A stretch of DNA of 20,207 nt from a virus: positions 1 through 20,207 of the IMG/VR virus record IMGVR_UViG_3300036719_003112. One strand, given 5' to 3'. Shown one piece after another: positions 8,109-18,798 of the stretch. Position numbers and translations under genes: made by a program. Below the pieces are notes generated by a model that was not told where the DNA came from, did not search any database, and saw nothing but the letters and a program-made list of their open reading frames with translations. How positions within the stretch are numbered: position 1 is the stretch's first letter; each line of letters begins with the position of its first letter.

Positions 8109-8543
8109 TTATTTTGAAATACTTCTCAACATCCAAGCATGTTTACTGTGAGTATCAATTCTGCCTGCTAAAAAGTCCATTAGTCCTTGTTGATCGAATT
8201 GCTCAGCAAGTTTAAATGTCATATTCAAAGTATTCATTACTATCTGATTATCACTTAATAATTTTCTTGCCATGTCGGTACCAAGAGGTACATTTAATTC
8301 ATCCTGTATTTCGGTTAATTCCATGAATCTAGAGAGGGAGCCTGGAGCATAAGCATCTAGAGCTCTAATTTGTTCGGCAATAGGGTCAACTGCGTCGTGA
8401 AGTTCTTGGTATAAATTACCAAAAAATTCGTGATATTGTGGGAAGTTTGAACCTTCTACATTCCAATGGTAGTTGTGTGATTTTAAGTACATAGCAAATG
8501 TATCTGCTAATACTTTTTTCATCATTTCTACTAAAGTTTCCAT
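8109..8543 (-). CDS. dps: Dps-family ferritin-like DNA-protection protein
   Basis: A 144-residue four-helix ferritin-like protein. Dps proteins form 12-mer shells that oxidise and store iron and can shield DNA from peroxide. Family motifs are clear: HNYHWNVEGSNF at residues 23-34, then YHEFF, then AVDPIAEQIRALDAYAPGSL. Ungapped comparison with E. coli Dps places H26, H38, D53 and E57 at the ferroxidase positions H51, H63, D78 and E82, but the D67 position is Gly42. No long basic N-terminal tail is present, so direct DNA binding of the E. coli type is not evident. A perfect TATAAATA and AAGGAAA Shine-Dalgarno precede it, and gp17 follows with no gap. It should therefore be a late product made with the packaging motor. 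Role in this phage unknown. Confidence 0.92.
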   Translation of the reverse strand: METLVEMMKKVLADTFAMYLKSHNYHWNVEGSNFPQYHEFFGNLYQELHDAVDPIAEQIRALDAYAPGSLSRFMELTEIQDELNVPLGTDMARKLLSDNQIVMNTLNMTFKLAEQFDQQGLMDFLAGRIDTHSKHAWMLRSISK

Positions 8544-8571: not shown

Positions 8572-9906
8572 TTATAAGTTTGTTATAGTGTCCGAAAATT
8601 GTATGGTGGTCAAAGAAGTTGCAGGAGTTGTTATACCCAAAGAACTGTTTGTCAGCGTGACTCCAGAACTAGCACTTGTCATAGAAGAAAGAATGTCGGT
8701 TACCGTAACATTTGAAGAACTAGCATTTGCATAAGTAATAGTATTTGCTAAAGCATAAACTCCTGTGTCTGATCCGTCAGCTTTAAATTTTGTTACAAAA
8801 TCTTTATTGGCTAGATAGATATATCCTTCTCTATCTGGAAATATATTAGGTTCTTGTCCATCGCCAGCGTGTATTGTTTTAGTATAATCAACTACACCGT
8901 TTGAATATAATTTTGAAATAACTGCCACGGTTGAATTTCGAGAGTCTCTACCTGTAAAATAAACAGCATCATCTTTTTTAGAATATGTTATAGTTGTAAT
9001 AGTAGTGTTACTAAATCTTTGAGCCCAGTCTAATGATCCGGTATTTGTTAATTTAGCAACGAATCCTTGAGTTGTGCCCGTACTAGTTTCTCTTCCCACC
9101 AAGTAAACATTTTTATCCGAGTCAACACACATACCTTCTGATATAAAAAATCTACCAATTCCTATTCCTAATTGTCTCCCCCAAGAAATAGTTCCTGTTG
9201 AAGTTAAAGAAATAACTTGAGAGTAAAATGTATTACCGTATTGGCGAGAATCAGCAGTAAACCAGGAGACATTATCGAAGGCTTCACAAGCTCTAATAGT
9301 TGGAAAATCATGACCACTAGGAACAACGTATTGTTTTTGATATACTGTTGATCCTGCGGTATTAAGACGTAAAATATATTGAAACTCTGTAAAAGTAACT
9401 CCTAGATAATCAGATTTTAAATCACTAAAAGCAAATTCACCCGAAACATCAGTAATTTGCCTTTGAAATCCTATTGTTCCAGTAGGTGTAAGTCTTATAA
9501 CATTTAGTCTTCCATTTAAAGCTGAAGATGAACTGGCGTGAGTCAGTCCAATATAAACATTTTGACTCGAATCGGGAACGTCTTTAGATGCCGTTTCATA
9601 TCTTTCTACTGAAATATGATTTGCAAAAATATAAGTATTTGCCGGATAATTTACTGCCCAATAAATGTTTCCATTAGATTTGTGTCTATTGATTATTCTT
9701 GCTGTATTTGTAAGTGTAGTAGAAGTGTTTGAGTCAGCACCAACCGTAATTATTTGTCCATTACTTGTATTACTGAAGGTGCCAGTTATTCCTCTATACC
9801 TATTTGTTGACATGGATATCCATCCGTTAGCTAAACCGGATGCAGCTGAACCCACTCTATACAATAAATAAGTTGCTATAGAAGTTAATGAACTTGATCT
9901 AGGCAT
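8572..9906 (-). CDS. Propeller-like repeat protein, probable tail fibre or adhesin component
   Basis: A 444-residue protein with about seven degenerate repeats of roughly 35-50 residues. Each combines a strand such as NVYLVGR or GYIYLAN with a strand such as FVAKLTNTGSLDWAQ. Approximate repeats lie at residues 50-86, 115-150, 166-192, 213-246, 265-299, 313-345 and 361-382, which suggests a seven-bladed beta-propeller. The N-terminus (MPRSSSLTSI) resembles that of the 193-residue tip protein (MPRINSLNTF), perhaps a shared attachment signal. Residues 385-444 are a Ser/Thr-rich tail outside the propeller. The start is 1 base after the upstream fibre stop, with only a weak Shine-Dalgarno (GGAT). 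Context and repeats suggest binding to a surface glycan or protein; no enzymatic motif was seen. Confidence 0.7.
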   Translation of the reverse strand: MPRSSSLTSIATYLLYRVGSAASGLANGWISMSTNRYRGITGTFSNTSNGQIITVGADSNTSTTLTNTARIINRHKSNGNIYWAVNYPANTYIFANHISVERYETASKDVPDSSQNVYIGLTHASSSSALNGRLNVIRLTPTGTIGFQRQITDVSGEFAFSDLKSDYLGVTFTEFQYILRLNTAGSTVYQKQYVVPSGHDFPTIRACEAFDNVSWFTADSRQYGNTFYSQVISLTSTGTISWGRQLGIGIGRFFISEGMCVDSDKNVYLVGRETSTGTTQGFVAKLTNTGSLDWAQRFSNTTITTITYSKKDDAVYFTGRDSRNSTVAVISKLYSNGVVDYTKTIHAGDGQEPNIFPDREGYIYLANKDFVTKFKADGSDTGVYALANTITYANASSSNVTVTDILSSMTSASSGVTLTNSSLGITTPATSLTTIQFSDTITNL

Positions 9907-9907
9907 T

Positions 9908-10627
9908 TTATCCGAATGTTGACAATTGACCTAATACTGTCCATGTACTAGATGTTCTCACTAAAGAAAAAACAACCAAGTCTCTTTTATTAGCATTTCC
10001 TGTTGGTGTTGATCCATTAGACCAATTTATAGTTTGTGAAGAACCGTCAATCTGTAATGCATTAGGTATATAAGCTGTGGCGCCTTGAATCAAAATAAGA
10101 GAAACAACCATAACTCTATCGTTTGTTGATGGTACGTTTGTTATATTTGCCGTAAAATTTGCAGATATAGAACTGTGATAAAATAAAGAACCTAAAGAAA
10201 AATTGTGCGTTACTGTTCCTGTAGCATTTGTTAATGTTTGTAATTTTTCTATTGATTGTTGTAAATTAGTATTTCCAGAAAGTGTTAAATCACCAGAAAT
10301 GGTTCCACCAGAAGTTGCAAGTTTTGTATTTGAAGAAGTAAAAGCTCCATTGGCATAACTACCTGCATTTATAGCATTTGTATTTGCAGTATTAGCTTGA
10401 GCAAAAGCTCCATTAGCATAAGAATCACTTGAGGTTGTTGTAAAAGATAAATTTCCTAAACCATCAGTTGATATGAATTGACCACTAGAACCTCCAGTAA
10501 TTTTTACATTACTTATAGAATTCAAGTTTGAACTACCAGAAATACTTAGACTATTTGCCGTTATATTATCAAACGAATAGTCTAAGGTTTCATCTATAAC
10601 ATCCGGTTTTATTTTTGTTAATGCCAT
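9908..10627 (-). CDS. Short tail fibre protein, miniature paralog of the 1550-residue fibre
   Basis: A 239-residue fibre-type protein. The N-terminus MALTKIKPDVIDETLDYSFD matches the first 20 residues of the giant fibre (MALTQIKPNAIDSTQDFVFD). The middle has only one or two heptad-type modules (SYANGAFAQANTANTNA, SYANGAFTSSNTK). From KLATSGGTISGDLTLSG, about residue 103, to the terminal LSTFG it parallels the C-terminus of the giant fibre, including ATGTVTHN, SLFYHSS, FTANITNVPS, IQGATAYIPNALQIDG and TINW. It therefore keeps both ends of the giant protein with almost no shaft. No clear Shine-Dalgarno is seen; the start is 9 bases past the upstream stop. Confidence 0.75.
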   Translation of the reverse strand: MALTKIKPDVIDETLDYSFDNITANSLSISGSSNLNSISNVKITGGSSGQFISTDGLGNLSFTTTSSDSYANGAFAQANTANTNAINAGSYANGAFTSSNTKLATSGGTISGDLTLSGNTNLQQSIEKLQTLTNATGTVTHNFSLGSLFYHSSISANFTANITNVPSTNDRVMVVSLILIQGATAYIPNALQIDGSSQTINWSNGSTPTGNANKRDLVVFSLVRTSSTWTVLGQLSTFG

Positions 10628-10955: not shown

Positions 10956-12176
10956 TTAAATAAACCATGTTATAATTGAATATCTAGTGCCTTTTGTTAC
11001 AGGCAAAATTTCATGCGGATACATAAAATTTGAAGGAAATAAAATTACTGATCCTTTTTTTAATTTGTATTTTAATTCTCGATTAAAGAAAGCAAACTCT
11101 CCTCCTTCATAATCTTCATTTAAAGCAATTGAACATGAAACTGACCTTGGGTGTTTTTTATAGGAATCAGTGTGTTCTTTATAAAATTGTCCAACTTCGT
11201 AAGATAATAAATCGTAACCCGTATCAATTTCAATATTACAATGAGGAAAACAATTATTATATTTATTAATTGCAACATTAACAGATTTAAAAATTTCTTC
11301 GTCTAATTTTTTTCTAATTTCAAAATTTTCATTAATAATATTTTCTTGAGATATTCCTATTGTTTTTACATTTCTTACATTTAAATCCATTGTTTCATAT
11401 CCTACTGATGCCAAATTCCAATTTTTATCATTATTATATTCTTTTAAAATAGAATTACACAATTCTTCAGATAAAATATTATCTACTACAACAATATAAT
11501 CAGAAATATTTTTTTTGTTATTGGATTCGTTTATTTTTAAATCTTTATTTTCTTTTTTTGGTAAACCATTAAGATAAGGAATATCTTTTACATCAACATT
11601 TAAATTGGAATTAATAGTTGCAACAATTTTATTGTCTACTTTTTTAAATTTATCAAAATACGCAAAAGAATTTTCACCTCTACTTAAAACATAATGTAAA
11701 AAAGTTTGAATATATTCAGTACCTTTAAAATTGTCTCTCCAATGAGCAGCATCACATCCCAAATATAACATAGCGTCACCTGCATTTAAATTTAATTCCA
11801 CAATTTCATTATTAGGTTTTTCTATGTATATTGGCCATTCTTTATCTCCACTTAAATGTATAGTTAAACTTATTTCACATGCATGTCTATCTTTATGTTT
11901 TTCTAAAACATTATTATTTTTATATACTCTACCATAAGAATATGTAGGTAAAACCATTTCACCTACTATTTCACTTACAACTGGAGTTTTTTCACATAAT
12001 AATTCTAAAAAATCAATGTAATTATACTGAGAAGGAGCTCCTTCAACTTGACTATCACCTTCAATATTGTTAGTTTCACAGAAATGCTTAAAATTTTTGG
12101 ATATTAATTTAGCTTGAGATTCACTGATAAAATTTGGAATGTAAATGTAATTATTTTCTTTTAATGAAATGTTCAT
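10956..12176 (-). CDS. Two-domain 2-oxoglutarate/Fe(II)-dependent oxygenase
   Basis: A 406-residue protein with two 2OG-Fe(II) dioxygenase-type domains, which hydroxylate substrates using O2 and 2-oxoglutarate. N-terminal domain, about residues 10-175: HKD metal motif at H94/D96 and distal His145 (AAHWRD), but no Arg or Lys ten residues after His145. C-terminal domain, about 225-406, prolyl-4-hydroxylase-like: HTD at H335/D337, distal His388 (YPHEI) and Arg398 for 2OG binding, with the typical GGEFAFF strand. The linker (about 176-224) is Lys/Asn-rich. The gene is strikingly AT-rich (one 60-base sample has 15% G+C). It is flanked by fibre-cassette genes, and the Shine-Dalgarno is weak (GAG). 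Substrate unknown; a structural protein such as a fibre is one possibility, host proteins another. Confidence 0.88.
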   Translation of the reverse strand: MNISLKENNYIYIPNFISESQAKLISKNFKHFCETNNIEGDSQVEGAPSQYNYIDFLELLCEKTPVVSEIVGEMVLPTYSYGRVYKNNNVLEKHKDRHACEISLTIHLSGDKEWPIYIEKPNNEIVELNLNAGDAMLYLGCDAAHWRDNFKGTEYIQTFLHYVLSRGENSFAYFDKFKKVDNKIVATINSNLNVDVKDIPYLNGLPKKENKDLKINESNNKKNISDYIVVVDNILSEELCNSILKEYNNDKNWNLASVGYETMDLNVRNVKTIGISQENIINENFEIRKKLDEEIFKSVNVAINKYNNCFPHCNIEIDTGYDLLSYEVGQFYKEHTDSYKKHPRSVSCSIALNEDYEGGEFAFFNRELKYKLKKGSVILFPSNFMYPHEILPVTKGTRYSIITWFI

Positions 12177-12551: not shown

Positions 12552-13073
12552 TCAATTTAAAGTTGCAATTATAACATCAACATATCGTATATTAAGATTA
12601 GCTACTGTACCACTAGCGGTTGCAGATAAACTGTGGGCATGTCCGCCAGCAGACCAAACAGTTCCGGTTGGAGTTGCTGAATCAGCTGTTGTTCCTGCTA
12701 CAGCATTAGTTATCACATTTGTAACAGTGCTATATCGAGGTGCAGGTGATGGAAAAGGAGGAGCTCCAGGAAAAAATTTTACGGGTTCATTAGCTAATCT
12801 AATAGTCGACGGCGTTGTAACAGGATGATTATGCGTTGGTATATTTGGATTAGCTATTGAAGTAGCATCACTATTCATAGTAAAGGGTGCACCAGTAAAA
12901 GAATATGGTGTACTATTAAAAACTGTTGTAAAATCTAAAGTTCCTCCAGAAGAAGTTGCTCCACTGACTACTCTCAATGCATGATTATTAAAATTAACAG
13001 TTTCTTTAGTCCAACCTGTTGGAGCAGAACTTTGTTGAAATAACGTTTTTGTACCGGAAGTAAAGATAGTCAT
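12552..13073 (-). CDS. Tail fibre tip-like protein, HxH paralog 3
   Basis: A 173-residue member of a tandem family of three. Framework: SAPTGWTKE at residues 17-24, HALRVVSGATSSGG at 31-44, first HxH at His81/His83 (IPTHNHP), second HxH at His145/His147 (GGHAHS), and the C-terminal strand NIRYVDVIIATLN. Paired HxH motifs recall metal-binding sites in phage receptor-binding tips, such as the iron sites of the T4 gp37 tip, and the PTGW and THxH segments resemble tail-collar-type proteins. The region between the HxH motifs (84-144) is Pro-rich and unlike the paralogs. The ATG follows the upstream TAA directly, with GAGAAAT as Shine-Dalgarno. Confidence 0.7.
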   Translation of the reverse strand: MTIFTSGTKTLFQQSSAPTGWTKETVNFNNHALRVVSGATSSGGTLDFTTVFNSTPYSFTGAPFTMNSDATSIANPNIPTHNHPVTTPSTIRLANEPVKFFPGAPPFPSPAPRYSTVTNVITNAVAGTTADSATPTGTVWSAGGHAHSLSATASGTVANLNIRYVDVIIATLN

Positions 13074-13559
13074 TTAATTTCTCGTAACTAAAATAATATC
13101 AACATAAAGAAGTCTAAAATCAAGGCCACCCGAAATACTACTAGATGATAGGGTTCCTATTGGATGAGTATGGCTGGTTCCAGTTGGAGCTGGAGTATTA
13201 TCATTGTGCGTTAAACTAGAGGAATATGTAGCTCTAAGGGTAGCCTGATACGCCGTTGGTTGACCTCTACCTGGAGAAGAAGTTCTCGTAGGACCAACCC
13301 AAAGTCTATCATGTCTGTGAGTTGGTAGTTGAGATGTGGTTAAAGTAACACTACCCACAGTTGGACTAATAGTGACAGTAGCAGGTTGTACAGTATAATC
13401 ATTAAATACCGTAGTAAAATTAATTGCACCAGCTGACGTTACAGATCCAGTTGTTACACGTAAAGTAAATTCATTAAAAGAAGTATCTTTTGTCCATCCT
13501 ACTGGAGGAGTGGTGACACGCATTACTGTTCTAGATGTTGATGGAATAATTAAAGACAT
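13074..13559 (-). CDS. Tail fibre tip-like protein, HxH paralog 2
   Basis: A 161-residue protein, the middle of the three tandem paralogs. Framework: TPPVGWTKDTSFNEFTLRV at residues 17-35, then TTGSVTSAGAINFTTVF, first HxH at His81/His83 (LPTHRHD), second HxH at His130/His132 (TSHTHP), and C-terminal LDFRLLYVDIILVTRN. The 84-129 insert (RLWVGPTRTSSPGRG and onwards) has no visible relation to the other two copies. Its stop is followed at once by the next ATG. Shine-Dalgarno GAGAAC. Most likely a virion tip or adhesin subunit that could trimerise around metal ions; this is inferred from motifs and context. Confidence 0.7.
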   Translation of the reverse strand: MSLIIPSTSRTVMRVTTPPVGWTKDTSFNEFTLRVTTGSVTSAGAINFTTVFNDYTVQPATVTISPTVGSVTLTTSQLPTHRHDRLWVGPTRTSSPGRGQPTAYQATLRATYSSSLTHNDNTPAPTGTSHTHPIGTLSSSSISGGLDFRLLYVDIILVTRN

Positions 13560-13561
13560 AT

Positions 13562-14143
13562 TTAAGTTCTCGTTGCTAAAATAACGTCCACATATTTAAC
13601 CGAAAAATTAAAACTAGCATAAGTTACAGATGGACTAGTAGAAGCTGTATGATCGTGAGCAGTTGTTGTTCCTGGTGTACCATTTATAGTTCCTGGAAAA
13701 TAATTATCACCCGTTAGTGATCCAAATAATGGAGCATTAGGAGGACTAAATTCAACATAAGGAGCTGTTCCTGGTGGATTAGGATGTCGAGTTGCACCAA
13801 ATTCTTGTGACGTAGTAGCCCCTTGGCCAGTTCTTGGATGTCGATGTGTAGGAATATTATTAATAACTAATGTAGTACCTCCAATTGATCCAGTCAAAAC
13901 TAAAGTACCATTTAAATTACGATTTGTCAATACACCAGAAAATCCCAACACACCTCCTGTAGAAACACTTCCTGATACAACTCTTAATCCATAATCATTA
14001 AGAGTTGTATCTTTTGTCCAACCAGTAGGAGCTGAAGTTTGAACAAAAAGCATAGTCGCACCCAGATAATTTGCCTGTTCACCCGCAGCTTCTCCAGTTA
14101 TAGAATTTAAAACAAAAGTATTAAGTGAGTTTATTCTAGGCAT
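13562..14143 (-). CDS. Tail fibre tip-like protein, HxH paralog 1
   Basis: A 193-residue protein, first and longest of the three paralogs. It has an extra N-terminal segment of about 27 residues (MPRINSLNTFVLNSITGEAA), whose start resembles that of the propeller-like protein and may be an attachment segment. The family framework follows: TSAPTGWTKDTTLNDYGLRV at residues 36-55, VSGSVSTGGVLGF, first HxH at His100/His102 (IPTHRHP), second HxH at His163/His165 (TAHDHT), ending VKYVDVILATRT. The insert 103-162 is Pro/Gly-rich. It starts 2 bases after the giant fibre stop, with GGAT as a weak ribosome site, so it is probably translated with the fibre. Confidence 0.7.
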   Translation of the reverse strand: MPRINSLNTFVLNSITGEAAGEQANYLGATMLFVQTSAPTGWTKDTTLNDYGLRVVSGSVSTGGVLGFSGVLTNRNLNGTLVLTGSIGGTTLVINNIPTHRHPRTGQGATTSQEFGATRHPNPPGTAPYVEFSPPNAPLFGSLTGDNYFPGTINGTPGTTTAHDHTASTSPSVTYASFNFSVKYVDVILATRT

Positions 14144-14145
14144 AA

Positions 14146-17100
14146 TTATCCAAAGGTTGCTTCAGATCCAAAAACGGACCATGCGCCGCCACCTGTACGA
14201 AGTAAAGTAAATGAATAAAATTCTGTTTTGTTTGCAGCTGCAGTTGGTGCTGTTCCTCCAAACCAATTTATAGTTTGTGCTGCACCATCAATTTGTACAG
14301 CAGTAGGAGCATATGGAGTAGCACCTTGAACAACTATTATAGAAACAACTATTGTTCGACTTGCTGTTGTTGGAACATTAGTAAAGTTAGCCGTCCAGTT
14401 TGCAGCAGGACTTGTGTGGTAAAAAGTTGTTGATGACGATGTGTTATGTGTTACTGTACCAGTTGCACCAGTTAAAGTTGTAAGAACTTCTGTTGTTTCA
14501 GATAGTGTCGTGAATCCAGAAACCGTTAAATCACCAGAAATTGTACCACCAGAAGTTTCTAATTTTGTGTTAGCTGCAGCAAAAGCACCATTCGCATATG
14601 AACTAGCAGCAGTTACATTATTAGCAGTTGCAAAAGATGAGTTAGCATATGATCCTGCTGATACAGATTTCTGGTCTGCCGTATTGGCAGCAATAAAAGC
14701 ACCATTGGCATATGAACTAGCACTACCTGCATTTGTTGTTGCAGTGTTTGCTGCAACGTATGCTGAGTTTGCATATGAACCTGCACTTACAGCTTTCTGA
14801 TCAGCAGTTGCAGCGTTAGTTGTTGCAGTGTTAGCTTGGGTATATCCTGAATTGGCATAAGAACCACTTGTTACCGCTCTTTGGTCGGCAGTAGCAGCAT
14901 TAGTAGTTGATGTATTTGCTTGACCATAAGCAGCGTTAGCATAGGCACCTGCACTTGTTGCTTCTTGTTCCGCTGTATTAGCAAAAGCATATGCAGCATT
15001 AGCGTACACACCTGAGGTAACAGCTCTTTGATCGGCAGTTGCAGCATTTGTAGTTGCGGTGTTAGCTTGAGTGTATCCAGAATTAGCATATGATCCAGAA
15101 GTTACTGCTCTTTGATCTGCTGTATTTGCAGAACTGTATGCCGAATTAGCATATGAACCAGCACTCAAAGCATTTTGATCAGCTGCTGCAGCATTTGTAT
15201 TAGCAGTATTTGCTTGAGTATATCCAGAATTAGCATAAGAACCCGCACTTATTGCCTTTTGATCTGCGGTATTTGCAGCACTGTATCCCGAATTAGCGTA
15301 TGATCCAGATGTTACAGCTCTTTGATCTGCTGATGCTGCATTTGTATTAGCAGTATTTGCTTGTCCGTATGCAGAGTTAGCATAACTTGATGCTGAATTT
15401 GCCGCATCTCTTACCCAAGTATCCGTACCACCTCCACCACCAAGAGATAATAGATTAGTTCCAACACCAGCAGAGGCTTGAGTTAAATCTATATACACAC
15501 CACGGGCAGAACCACCTTGTTCAAAAATTCTTATCTTGTCTTGATAAGCATCAATCGTAATGCCGCCATCAAGAGTGTTATTGGTGCTCGGTTTTCCTAA
15601 TAATATTTCACCACCCTCATCACCACCAACTGCTAATATATGTAATTTTCCTCCATTACCAATTCTAAGTTCTCCGTCAAAAGTTGTTCCACTTGTATTT
15701 GCAAGTGCATTATTTGCTTTTGAAAAAGCTCCGTTAGCATAACTAGATGCCGAATTCGATGTAGTAAATGCAGAATTTGCATGATTTATTGGATCATATC
15801 CTCTTACTCTAACAACATCAGAAATTAAGTTTGCATTTAAATTAGCAATTCTAAAACTAGAGTTGGCAACATCAATAGTATTATTTGGTGATGCTGTGTC
15901 AAAACTTGGATCCAAATAGTTATAGAAGAGATAATAAAGTCCGTCCGATGCGTCACGGATAAGTCCTGTATGTCTTTCATTTATTCCAGAATCGTCACTG
16001 TAATGTCCTACAAATCCAATATCTAATGTATCCGAAGTTTCATTATTGGATGCTAACTGAAGTAATGGATCATCCACCCTTAAATCAGATACACTAATGG
16101 TGGTTGCGTTACCAGAAACTACTAAGTTGCCAGTAATATTTAAATCACCACTAACTGTACCACCAGATGATGATAATTTAGAATTAGCTGTAGTGTAAGC
16201 CGAGTTAGCGTAAGAACCAGCACTTACTGCCTTTTGATCAGCTGTGTTTGCAACACTGTAAGCAGAATTAGCATAGTCGCCTGATGTTGTTGCTCTTTGA
16301 TCAGCAGTTGCAGCATTTGTTGTAGCAGTATTAGCTTGTACGTAAGCCGAGTTAGCATAAGAACCTGCACTAACTGCTTTCTGATCCGCTGTGTTAGCAG
16401 CATTATATCCAGAATTAGCATATGAACCTGCATTTACAGCTTTCTGATCAGCAGTTGCAGCGTTAGTTGTTGCAGTGTTAGCTTGGGTATAGGCTGAGTT
16501 TGAATAACTAGATGTTGAGTTTGCAGCATCAAAAGCACCATTAGCATAAATTCCTGATCGCACAGAAGTTTCGGATGCACCATTAGCTGTACTAAAAGAT
16601 GAGTTAGCATAACTGCCTGAAGTTACTGCTCTTTGATCCGCAGTTGCTGCATTTGTTGTTGCGGTATTAGCTTGAGTATATGATGAATTAGCATATGAAC
16701 CAGAAGTAACAGCTCTCTGATCTGATGTAGATGCATTTGTTGTTGCGGTATTTGCTTGGCCATAAGCCGCGTTAGCATATACACCTGAAGTAAAAGCTGT
16801 CTGGTCAGCAGCTGCAGCATTTGTGTTTGCAATGTTGGCCTGCAAATAAGCCGAGTTGGCATATGAACCAGAATTAGTTGCTATAGTTTCGGATGTATTA
16901 GCAACAGAGAAAGAACTATTTGCATAACTACCTGATGTTACAGCTTTTTGGTCAGCTGTTGCAGCGTTAGTTGTTGCAGTGTTTGCCTGACTGTATGCTG
17001 AGTTAGCGTAAGAACCTGAAGTAACAGCTCTTTGATCTGCTGTTGCTGCGTTTGTTGCACTCGTATTAGACTGTGAGTATGCTGAATTAGCATAATCTCC

Positions 17101-18798
17101 AGAAGTTACAGCTCTCTGATCGGCAGTTGCAGCATTTGTAGTTGCGGTGTTAGCTTGAGTGTATCCAGAATTAGCATAATCTCCAGAAGTTACTGCTCTT
17201 TGATCAGCAGTAGCAGCATTAGTGTTTGCAGTGTTAGCTTGACCATAAGCACTATTAGCATAAGAACCTGAAGTAACTGCTCTTTGATCAGCAGTTGCTG
17301 CATTTGTATTAGCAGTATTTGCTTGTCCGTATGCGGAGTTGGAATATGAAGAAGAACTATTAGCAACAATATAAGCTGAGTTAGCATAACTAGATGCTGA
17401 ATTTGCAGTATCTCTAGACCAAGAATCTGTAGTGCCACTATTTGCCACAGCAAATGCTGCATTAGCATAAAGACCTGCTGATATTGCATTTGTATTAGCT
17501 GTATTAGCTTGAGTATAACCTGAATTAGCATATGAACCAGATGTTACTGCTCTTTGGTCAGCTGTGTTTGCAACAACAAATGATCCATTAGCGTATTCTC
17601 CAGAACTTGAAGCTTTTTGATCTGCTGTATTTGCGACACTAAAAGCTTCATTTGCATATGAACTACTAGAATTTGCTACATTAAAAGAGGCATTGGTGTG
17701 ATTTATTGGGTCGAAGCCACGAATATTAATTGTATCAGTTACTATATTTGCTGTAAGATTTGCTATTCTAAAACTAGAGTTAGCAACATCAATAGTGTTG
17801 TTTGGAGATAACGTACCAAAACTTGGATCTAGATAGTTATGGAATAAGTAATATAAACCATTCGATGCATCACGGAAAAGTCCAGTATGTCTTTGATTTA
17901 CTCCCGCATCATCACTATAGTGTCCAAAGAATCCGATATCCAAAGAATCAGATGTTTCATTATTTGATGCTAACTGGATTAAACTGTCATTTATTTTTAT
18001 ACTCGAAACAGCGATACTAGTAGCATTACCCAAAACAGTTAAATTGCCAGTAATACTTAAATCGCCTGATAGTGTGCCACCAGATGCGTTTAACTTGTTG
18101 TTGGCTGTACTATAAGCAGAATTAGCATAACTAGATGCAACATTAGCAGTTCCTTGTGCAACACCAGCTGCGGTCAACGCAGCATTAGCAGTGCCTTCTG
18201 CATTATTAGCTATGTTTAATGCAGAATCAGCGGTTGATTGTGCAGAACTAGCTGCACTTGCAGCAAAGTTAGCAGTTTCGTAAGCCGAGTTAGCGTATAA
18301 ACCAGAAGTTACTGCTCTTTGATCCGCAGTAGCAGCATTAGTGTTTGCAGTGTTAGCTTGGTTATAAGCTGAGTTAGCATGAGTTCTTGAATCAAAGGCT
18401 CTCTGATCTGCTAATGCTGCATTGGTGTTAGCTGTGTTAGCCAGACTGTATGCAGAGTTAGAATATGAAGAAGAACTGTTAGCTGTACCATATGCCGCAT
18501 TAGCATAAGATGATGCTGAGTTGGCAGAATCTCTAGCATATGAATCTGTAGCTGAACCACCAGTGTTCGCAACAGCAAATGCGGCATTAGCATAACTAGA
18601 TGCTGAATTTGCAGCGTCGTAGGCTGCATTAGATTGTGTCGATGAATCAAAACCACTACTTACATTAATTGATTGTGCTCCAGTAACAGTAAGACTACCG
18701 CCACTATTACTTAAAACAATACCGTCAATAGTTATACTATCAAATACGAAATCTTGTGTTGAATCAATAGCATTTGGTTTTATTTGTGTTAGTGCCAT
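14146..18798 (-). CDS. Giant repetitive tail fibre with alanine-heptad shaft
   Basis: A 1550-residue fibre. N-terminal attachment-like module at about residues 1-50 (MALTQIKPNAIDSTQDFVFD). Three shaft segments, about 40-233, 370-869 and 1124-1412, are built from 28- and 21-residue units such as SYANSAYGQANTANTNAATA, DQRAVTSG. In the register YANSAYS/QANTATT/NAATADQ/RAVTSGS, Ala recurs at positions 2 and 5 of every seven residues, indicating an alanine-rich coiled coil. Shaft segments are interrupted by a duplicated globular domain (about 234-369 and 869-1008; GFFGHYSDD, RHTGLFRDAS, LYYLFHNYLDPSF) and a third domain (about 1036-1123; KLHILAVGGDEGGEILLG). The C-terminus, about 1413-1550, matches the 239-residue fibre. 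The ATG overlaps the gp16 stop (TAATG). Very probably a long tail fibre. Confidence 0.8.
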   Translation of the reverse strand: MALTQIKPNAIDSTQDFVFDSITIDGIVLSNSGGSLTVTGAQSINVSSGFDSSTQSNAAYDAANSASSYANAAFAVANTGGSATDSYARDSANSASSYANAAYGTANSSSSYSNSAYSLANTANTNAALADQRAFDSRTHANSAYNQANTANTNAATADQRAVTSGLYANSAYETANFAASAASSAQSTADSALNIANNAEGTANAALTAAGVAQGTANVASSYANSAYSTANNKLNASGGTLSGDLSITGNLTVLGNATSIAVSSIKINDSLIQLASNNETSDSLDIGFFGHYSDDAGVNQRHTGLFRDASNGLYYLFHNYLDPSFGTLSPNNTIDVANSSFRIANLTANIVTDTINIRGFDPINHTNASFNVANSSSSYANEAFSVANTADQKASSSGEYANGSFVVANTADQRAVTSGSYANSGYTQANTANTNAISAGLYANAAFAVANSGTTDSWSRDTANSASSYANSAYIVANSSSSYSNSAYGQANTANTNAATADQRAVTSGSYANSAYGQANTANTNAATADQRAVTSGDYANSGYTQANTATTNAATADQRAVTSGDYANSAYSQSNTSATNAATADQRAVTSGSYANSAYSQANTATTNAATADQKAVTSGSYANSSFSVANTSETIATNSGSYANSAYLQANIANTNAAAADQTAFTSGVYANAAYGQANTATTNASTSDQRAVTSGSYANSSYTQANTATTNAATADQRAVTSGSYANSSFSTANGASETSVRSGIYANGAFDAANSTSSYSNSAYTQANTATTNAATADQKAVNAGSYANSGYNAANTADQKAVSAGSYANSAYVQANTATTNAATADQRATTSGDYANSAYSVANTADQKAVSAGSYANSAYTTANSKLSSSGGTVSGDLNITGNLVVSGNATTISVSDLRVDDPLLQLASNNETSDTLDIGFVGHYSDDSGINERHTGLIRDASDGLYYLFYNYLDPSFDTASPNNTIDVANSSFRIANLNANLISDVVRVRGYDPINHANSAFTTSNSASSYANGAFSKANNALANTSGTTFDGELRIGNGGKLHILAVGGDEGGEILLGKPSTNNTLDGGITIDAYQDKIRIFEQGGSARGVYIDLTQASAGVGTNLLSLGGGGGTDTWVRDAANSASSYANSAYGQANTANTNAASADQRAVTSGSYANSGYSAANTADQKAISAGSYANSGYTQANTANTNAAAADQNALSAGSYANSAYSSANTADQRAVTSGSYANSGYTQANTATTNAATADQRAVTSGVYANAAYAFANTAEQEATSAGAYANAAYGQANTSTTNAATADQRAVTSGSYANSGYTQANTATTNAATADQKAVSAGSYANSAYVAANTATTNAGSASSYANGAFIAANTADQKSVSAGSYANSSFATANNVTAASSYANGAFAAANTKLETSGGTISGDLTVSGFTTLSETTEVLTTLTGATGTVTHNTSSSTTFYHTSPAANWTANFTNVPTTASRTIVVSIIVVQGATPYAPTAVQIDGAAQTINWFGGTAPTAAANKTEFYSFTLLRTGGGAWSVFGSEATFG
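14570..15425 (-). repeat. Tandem coding repeats, third shaft segment of giant fibre
   Basis: Tandem 84-bp (28 residues) and 63-bp (21 residues) coding units, for example the SGSYANSGYTQANTATTNAA unit around 15000-15110 and again around 14780-14880. Unit lengths are multiples of 21 bp, so heptad phase is kept. DNA copies are similar but differ mostly at third codon positions. Confidence 0.85.
15775..16190 (-). repeat. Second copy of a duplicated globular domain in the giant fibre
   Basis: This segment encodes KLSSSGGTVSGDLNITG to DPINHAN, about 135 residues. It is clearly homologous to the segment at about 17692-18100 in the same gene; shared stretches include LQLASNNETSD, YNYLDPSF or HNYLDPSF, and SPNNTIDVANSSFRIANL. 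Substitutions such as GFFGHYSDDAGVNQ versus GFVGHYSDDSGINE show an older duplication. Confidence 0.85.
16190..17690 (-). repeat. Tandem coding repeats, second and longest shaft segment
   Basis: About 1.5 kb of 84-bp and 63-bp tandem coding units (TADQRAVTSGSYANSAY type). Codons for the same residues vary between units, for example the complement of YANS appears as gcataagaacc, gcatatgaacc or gcgtaagaacc. It is the longest repetitive tract in the window and a likely place for length variation or assembly collapse. Confidence 0.85.
17692..18100 (-). repeat. First copy of the duplicated globular domain in the giant fibre
   Basis: This segment encodes KLNASGGTLSGDLSITG to DPINHTN. It pairs with the copy at about 15775-16190, with the same domain order and length. 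It separates the first heptad shaft (18100-18650) from the second. Confidence 0.85.

Follow-up and report, generated by a model that had tools for sequence, protein, structure and literature searches.

The 1550-residue product of a single open frame in an uncultured T4-like aquatic phage is probably a homotrimeric fibre of the tail or baseplate, the rod of which would be an alanine-core parallel coiled coil that carries non-coil domains and register-reset linkers, ends in a beta-rich tip and changes in length heptad by heptad. In the arrangement that we favor, the N-terminal ~57 residues would hold the fibre on the virion and ~1000 residues would fold into helices that run parallel in a coiled coil, position a being Ala and position d Ala or Ser; the result would be a thin rod with roughly 147 nm of coil, broken up by non-coil domains that are probably globular and ended by the C-terminal beta-rich tip. 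Length would change by gain or loss of whole heptads, and at recurrent linkers with D-x-[YWFLVI]-[AVS]-R at their end one helix would stop and another begin in a different register, these linkers probably serving as hinges. The Ala-core, almost Leu-free coil of lambdoid prophage fibres appears to recur in uncultured T4-like aquatic phages, as the main shaft of fibres of great length.

Locus and architecture of the giant fibre gene

The window, that is, the whole 20,207-base virus sequence analyzed here (IMGVR_UViG_3300036719_003112), carries g16, g17, g18, g19 and g20 of the T4-type structural module on its minus strand, as identified by PHROG matches, and the fibre gene lies within this module, in a variable stretch between the terminase genes g16 and g17. 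The tail sheath of the window is closest to those of T4-like phages, including Kyanoviridae phages of Pelagibacter and Methylophilales, and judging by these genes the virus is an uncultured T4-like (Kyanoviridae-type) aquatic phage. In marine cyanomyoviruses the interval from g15 to g18 includes a hypervariable region (PMC2984593), so the location of the fibre corresponds to a known insertion site. In the cultured relatives HTVC008M, Mosig and Melnitz the g16-g17 gap is filled by other genes, and the stretches fetched from these three phages contained no long Ala coil.

The reading frame was found exactly where the sequence-only reading had placed it (Table 1), and the identity of the fibre in a second IMG/VR contig speaks against an assembly accident. 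That reading had also described the shaft as one continuous coil, which did not hold: three non-coil domains interrupt it and the tip ends it. Non-coil domains 1 and 2 are 74% identical to each other; domain 1 is poorly resolved and its predicted structure does not suffice for a fold search. The N-terminal domain is the probable site of virion attachment. A mini-paralogue, almost without a shaft, constitutes a natural short version of the giant fibre in the same genome, matching its N-terminus at 43% over residues 1-81.

Table 1. The giant fibre, its parts and associated genes in the window (residues are those of the 1550-residue protein; L numbers are our handles for the sequences compared)
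Feature	Position	Strand	Basis or remark
Giant fibre gene, 1550 aa	14146..18798	-	One open frame; PHROG tail-fibre matches; identical copy in L005
N-terminal domain, residues 1-57	18628..18798	-	93-95% identical in L006, L007, L014; shared with mini-paralogue
Coil 1a, residues 58-79, register 0	18562..18627	-	Register scan
Register-reset linker GGSATDSYARD, residues 80-90, shift +1	18529..18561	-	Register scan
Coil 1b, residues 91-232, Ala heptads	18103..18528	-	a/d counts, period, register scan
Non-coil domain 1, residues 233-365	17704..18102	-	Without strong 3.5-residue period; few strands predicted, pLDDT 57-77
Coil 2a, residues 366-453, Ala heptads	17440..17703	-	a/d counts, period; helix predicted, low pLDDT
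Register-reset linker SGTTDSWSRD, residues 454-463, shift -1	17410..17439	-	Register scan; AlphaFold helix break 454-458
Coil 2b, residues 464-871, longest single-register block	16186..17409	-	426-residue segment in one register
Non-coil domain 2, residues 872-1003	15790..16185	-	Repeat of domain 1; without heptad period
Coil 3, short, residues 1004-1030	15709..15789	-	7/7 Ala at a/d
Non-coil domain 3, residues 1031-1124	15427..15708	-	Conserved in L007, L006, L028, L010, L066, L078
Coil 4, residues 1125-1409, opens with TDTWVRD right after domain 3; spacing 17 near end	14572..15426	-	Motif spacing, a/d counts, period
C-terminal tip, residues 1410-1550	14149..14571	-	60% identical to mini-paralogue; matches phage spike/tailspike modules
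Three tandem genes (193, 161, 173 aa), GWTKDT-like and THxH motifs	12552..14143	-	Directly downstream of fibre
Mini-paralogue, 239 aa: N-terminal domain, very short coil, same tip	9908..10627	-	Sequence comparison, structure prediction

Alanine heptads, fibre length and register resets

When the shaft is laid out in sevens, Ala recurs at two positions that are 3 and 4 residues apart and correspond to a and d. Over the ~994 residues of the four coil blocks, with registers assigned per segment, Ala occupies 92% of a positions and 68% of d positions, Ser taking a further 24% of the latter. Asn is found at 63% of b positions and Thr or Ser at 77% of c positions, and Tyr is frequent at e and g. These 994 residues contain 8 Leu, 9 Ile and 1 Pro, so that the description of the shaft as Leu-free was nearly true. 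The claim that Ala occupies two fixed heptad positions was confirmed in each block: Ala on a/d amounted to 38/56, 94/127, 7/7 and 66/86, and none of 2000 shuffles per block reached these counts (maxima of 27, 53, 6 and 40). The Fourier spectrum of Ala peaks at a period of 3.50 (power 62 over coil 2), with little signal at the beta-type periods of 2.0-2.3, and a strict heptad scan retrieved 1061 coil residues, compared to 86 in shuffled sequence; a lax scan for 5 Ala of 8 was dropped, as a shuffled copy scored too.

Spacings between YAN, YSN and HAN motifs are nearly all multiples of seven (14, 21, 28, one of 56 and one of 119), and the assertion that all units are such multiples fails at spacings of 29, 27 and 17. 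The shaft DNA contains tandem repeats of 63, 84 and 147 bases, and since the units are tandem repeats at the DNA level, multiples of seven could come from the copying of 21- and 28-residue units. The shaft would then be disordered or beta-structured, its heptads reflecting nothing but unit duplication, and the low confidence of the AlphaFold monomer lends this some weight: helix, not strand, is predicted for the shaft, but with a pLDDT mostly between 35 and 56, and the mean helix propensity of the shaft is poor owing to its Asn, Ser, Thr and ~5% Gly, the last occurring in most units. Nevertheless, we regard this explanation as highly improbable. Inside one unit the four heptads are different in sequence, yet all keep Ala at a/d, and units of 21 and 28 residues both stay in phase. 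The codons for Ala at a/d comprise 113 GCT, 90 GCA, 13 GCC and 8 GCG, indicating that the repeats are not recent copies. Moreover, in L009 and L010, which of the full-length relatives tested diverge most, conservation at a/d is 0.75-0.76 compared to 0.61-0.63 at b, c, e, f and g, and 55-60% of those a/d residues that are conserved are encoded by a different codon, which points to selection on the protein. The lack of a beta-type period argues in the same direction, as do the lengths of related fibres.

Distances in the relatives, measured without alignment, mostly follow the heptad. From a linker to the next KL..GG anchor they are 43, 64, 92, 148, 330, 414 and 484, all 1 modulo 7; across coil 4 they are 284 and 354, both 4 modulo 7; and from KL to KL they are 639 (the window), 667, 709 and 828, all 2 modulo 7, with one distance, 1246, out of class (0 modulo 7). 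DPIN-to-linker distances (24, 83, 95, 192 and 320) show no phase lock. Indels that are multiples of seven make up 58 of 90 in the coils and 1 of 23 outside them, counts that are non-independent as they include related sequences sharing ancestry; because of this kinship, and because an aligner favors in-phase gaps in repeats, the anchor distances weigh more. Together, periodicity and the phase of indels and anchors in relatives give good support to an Ala-core heptad coil, and stepwise change by heptads offers a simple rule by which a fibre may change length without losing register. Helicity itself is predicted at low confidence, and the proposal of a coil instead of a beta shaft agrees with that prediction, although the contrast proved too simple, as coil blocks alternate with non-coil domains.

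Open frames of 3658 residues (L015:7408-18381) and 3465 residues (L025:7312-17706), each with ~2640 coil residues, and of 2865 residues with ~2300 coil residues (L016:10312-18906), occur among the relatives, these lengths being those of the frames as read, some ends of which may be the edge of the stretch fetched. By arithmetic, ~2640 coil residues in the 3658-residue frame would extend to roughly 390 nm.

Heptad phase is not continuous and is lost at D-x-Phi-[AVS]-R linkers; the sequence-only reading had named its loss across many units as evidence against a coil. Linkers had been expected to keep register, and TANSASSYANSAYIVANSSSS does so, though it starts just past a reset, whereas GGSATDSYARD shifts the register by +1 and GTTDSWSRD by -1. 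The helix break that AlphaFold places at residues 454-458 (SGTTD), right before SWSRD, agrees with the latter change. Across the relatives, D-x-[YWFLVI]-[AVS]-R is present at 61 of 93 distinct register-change sites, a figure that describes the data and is no independent test, the motif having been chosen after viewing the sites; inside coils, 58 of 62 such motifs change register. The shift varies with the type of linker, being mostly 2 for DNYAR and 5 for DTWVR, and the three long frames above use a second type, VSSGSVDNYARPHANAAF, mostly with a shift of 2. We tentatively propose that D-x-[YWFLVI]-[AVS]-R may be a dedicated joint, at which one Ala coil stops and the following one is nucleated with its register set anew, allowing aquatic T4-like phages to grow fibres by heptad cassettes beyond known tail fibre sizes. 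If this doubtful but possible reading is true, it would apply to fibres as large as the 3658-residue frame with its ~2640 coil residues; in any case the reset linker provides a testable joint.

Tip, oligomeric state and known coiled-coil fibres

Modeled via the 239-residue mini-paralogue, the tip forms a beta-rich domain predicted with a pLDDT of 91-98. Its best fold matches were the capsid spike of Pseudomonas phage Pa223 and tailspike modules, with Z up to 7.9 and an rmsd of 3.0 over 98 residues, values that may reflect a similar arrangement only (Z <8); it also resembled T4 gp9 structures and, in a viral library, annotated tail fibres. Matches outside phages (internalins, MinC, toxin chains and rotavirus VP8*) were set aside as common-arrangement noise. 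The match to a capsid spike raises the alternative that the protein is a coiled-coil fibre of the head or neck, or another virion decoration, rather than of the tail. T4 fibritin is such a protein of a T4-type phage, located at the neck. A title cited in PMC10713586 presents it (gpwac) as a segmented coiled coil, and on that description it can be likened to the window fibre, though it is far shorter. We consider a head or neck position unlikely: the PHROG matches of the fibre are to tail fibre, tail fibre assembly or unknown families, tailspike and T4 gp9 structures are likewise among the matches of the tip, and the length is far above that of fibritin, none of these points being decisive. The tail or baseplate thus remains the location that we favor.

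Ala at a/d alone does not fix the oligomeric state, and the AlphaFold run was that of a monomer, so the heptads could be real and the coil be two-stranded, four-stranded or antiparallel (Alacoil-like) instead of a parallel trimer. Phage tail fibres are usually trimers, and the tip provides a further indication. In the Actinomycetia phage DSL-LC01 (L085:2434-3381) a homologous tip, 56-58% identical, begins 11 residues after a run of 15 Gly-X-Y triplets. Given that collagen is an obligate trimer, one type of tip appears to cap both shafts, which favors a trimeric Ala coil and suggests that tips are swapped between shaft types. The closest experimental precedent is PCoil, expressed by Ghosh et al. 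in 2012 from the E. coli prophage side tail fibres EPclA/EPclB, which was found to be helical, trimeric by light scattering and centrifugation, and to melt reversibly near 50 degrees (PMC3368898). In addition, PMC10713586 describes LtfA of the T5-like phage DT57C as a trimeric lateral tail fibre with a three-helix coiled coil projecting from the tail tip; by this description it resembles the window fibre, which would likewise be a trimeric coil. Another oligomer is therefore quite unlikely, and by analogy with PCoil and with the collagen-linked tip of DSL-LC01 we take the fibre to be a trimer.

PCoil consists of Ala-X-X-Ala/Ser-X-X-Ser heptads almost without Leu, Val and Ile, comes in lengths that differ by multiples of seven and forms part of a phage fibre stalk (PMC3368898). 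The window fibre shares these traits, having low-complexity heptads in a single register, in which a is filled by Ala and d by Ala or Ser, nearly without Leu and Ile, and length differences between relatives that are, with exceptions, multiples of seven. The same scan of the lambda side tail fibre orf-401 (NP_040602) was also positive, revealing one single-register Ala heptad segment at residues 125-354 (230 residues) with a period of 3.50, and hence the idea of an Ala-core coil has a close precedent. The differences lie elsewhere: PCoil measures ~16 nm and adjoins a collagen domain, whereas the window fibre has ~994 coil residues in four blocks, with interspersed non-coil domains and register-reset linkers, and the lambda segment contains no register reset. 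The surface had been called unusual for a coiled coil; PCoil is a precedent for such composition (PMC3368898), yet the Asn/Ser/Thr/Tyr-rich surface found here does differ from that of lambda, in which Ala, Ser, Glu and Lys are more abundant, and gives a naturally occurring design of a long Ala coil with almost no charge. What is new compared to PCoil and lambda is thus the size, this surface, the alternating non-coil domains and the reset linkers.

Searches with the fibre were largely silent. Using tblastn against cultured phages, the whole fibre, domain 1 with its flanks and a 133-residue piece of the shaft matched the tip only or nothing, though the low-complexity filter masks the shaft, so that this silence does not establish its absence from cultured phages; the shaft DNA (blastn) and the N-terminal 76 residues also had no match there. 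No match was obtained by phmmer in the PDB, no family was found in the fibre in Pfam (E up to 1) or NCBIfam, and no published description of a shaft of this kind was found in the open-access literature. PF08400 (phage_tail_N) and PF03406 (Phage_fiber_2) are absent from the window fibre, whereas the same library finds both in lambda orf-401. The fibre therefore seems to work like PCoil, membership in the Stf/EPclA group by descent being unsupported.

Neighboring genes

A recurring gene order was observed in the relatives: g16, the fibre, three GWTKDT-type genes, a 102-residue gene, a 2OG-Fe(II) oxygenase-type gene and a 101-residue gene. The three GWTKDT genes are paralogue-like and have no Pfam match, and although their order is kept in the relatives, their identity is only 36-51%. 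Between L013 and the window, g16 is 97% and the 101-residue gene 94% identical, compared to only 38-45% for the GWTKDT genes, which diverge among relatives far more than g16 or the fibre tip (88-96% identical in the close relatives L006, L007 and L020). This hints that the GWTKDT proteins, and not the tip, vary with the host, and on sequence grounds they are possible host-range adhesins.

Between the fibre genes and g17 lies a gene for a Ferritin-domain protein (8109-8543; PF00210, E 2.5e-21), perhaps Dps-like by its sequence and labeled DNA binding by PHROG. A 406-residue protein (10956-12176) combines a match to a ferrochelatase-named PHROG at residues 9-179 with a 2OG-Fe(II) oxygenase domain at residues 323-405; its first half may also be oxygenase-like, which makes the ferrochelatase name doubtful. 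Lastly, a 444-residue protein (8572-9906) showed weak matches, under the curated cut-offs, to a delta-60/DUF5122 beta-propeller.
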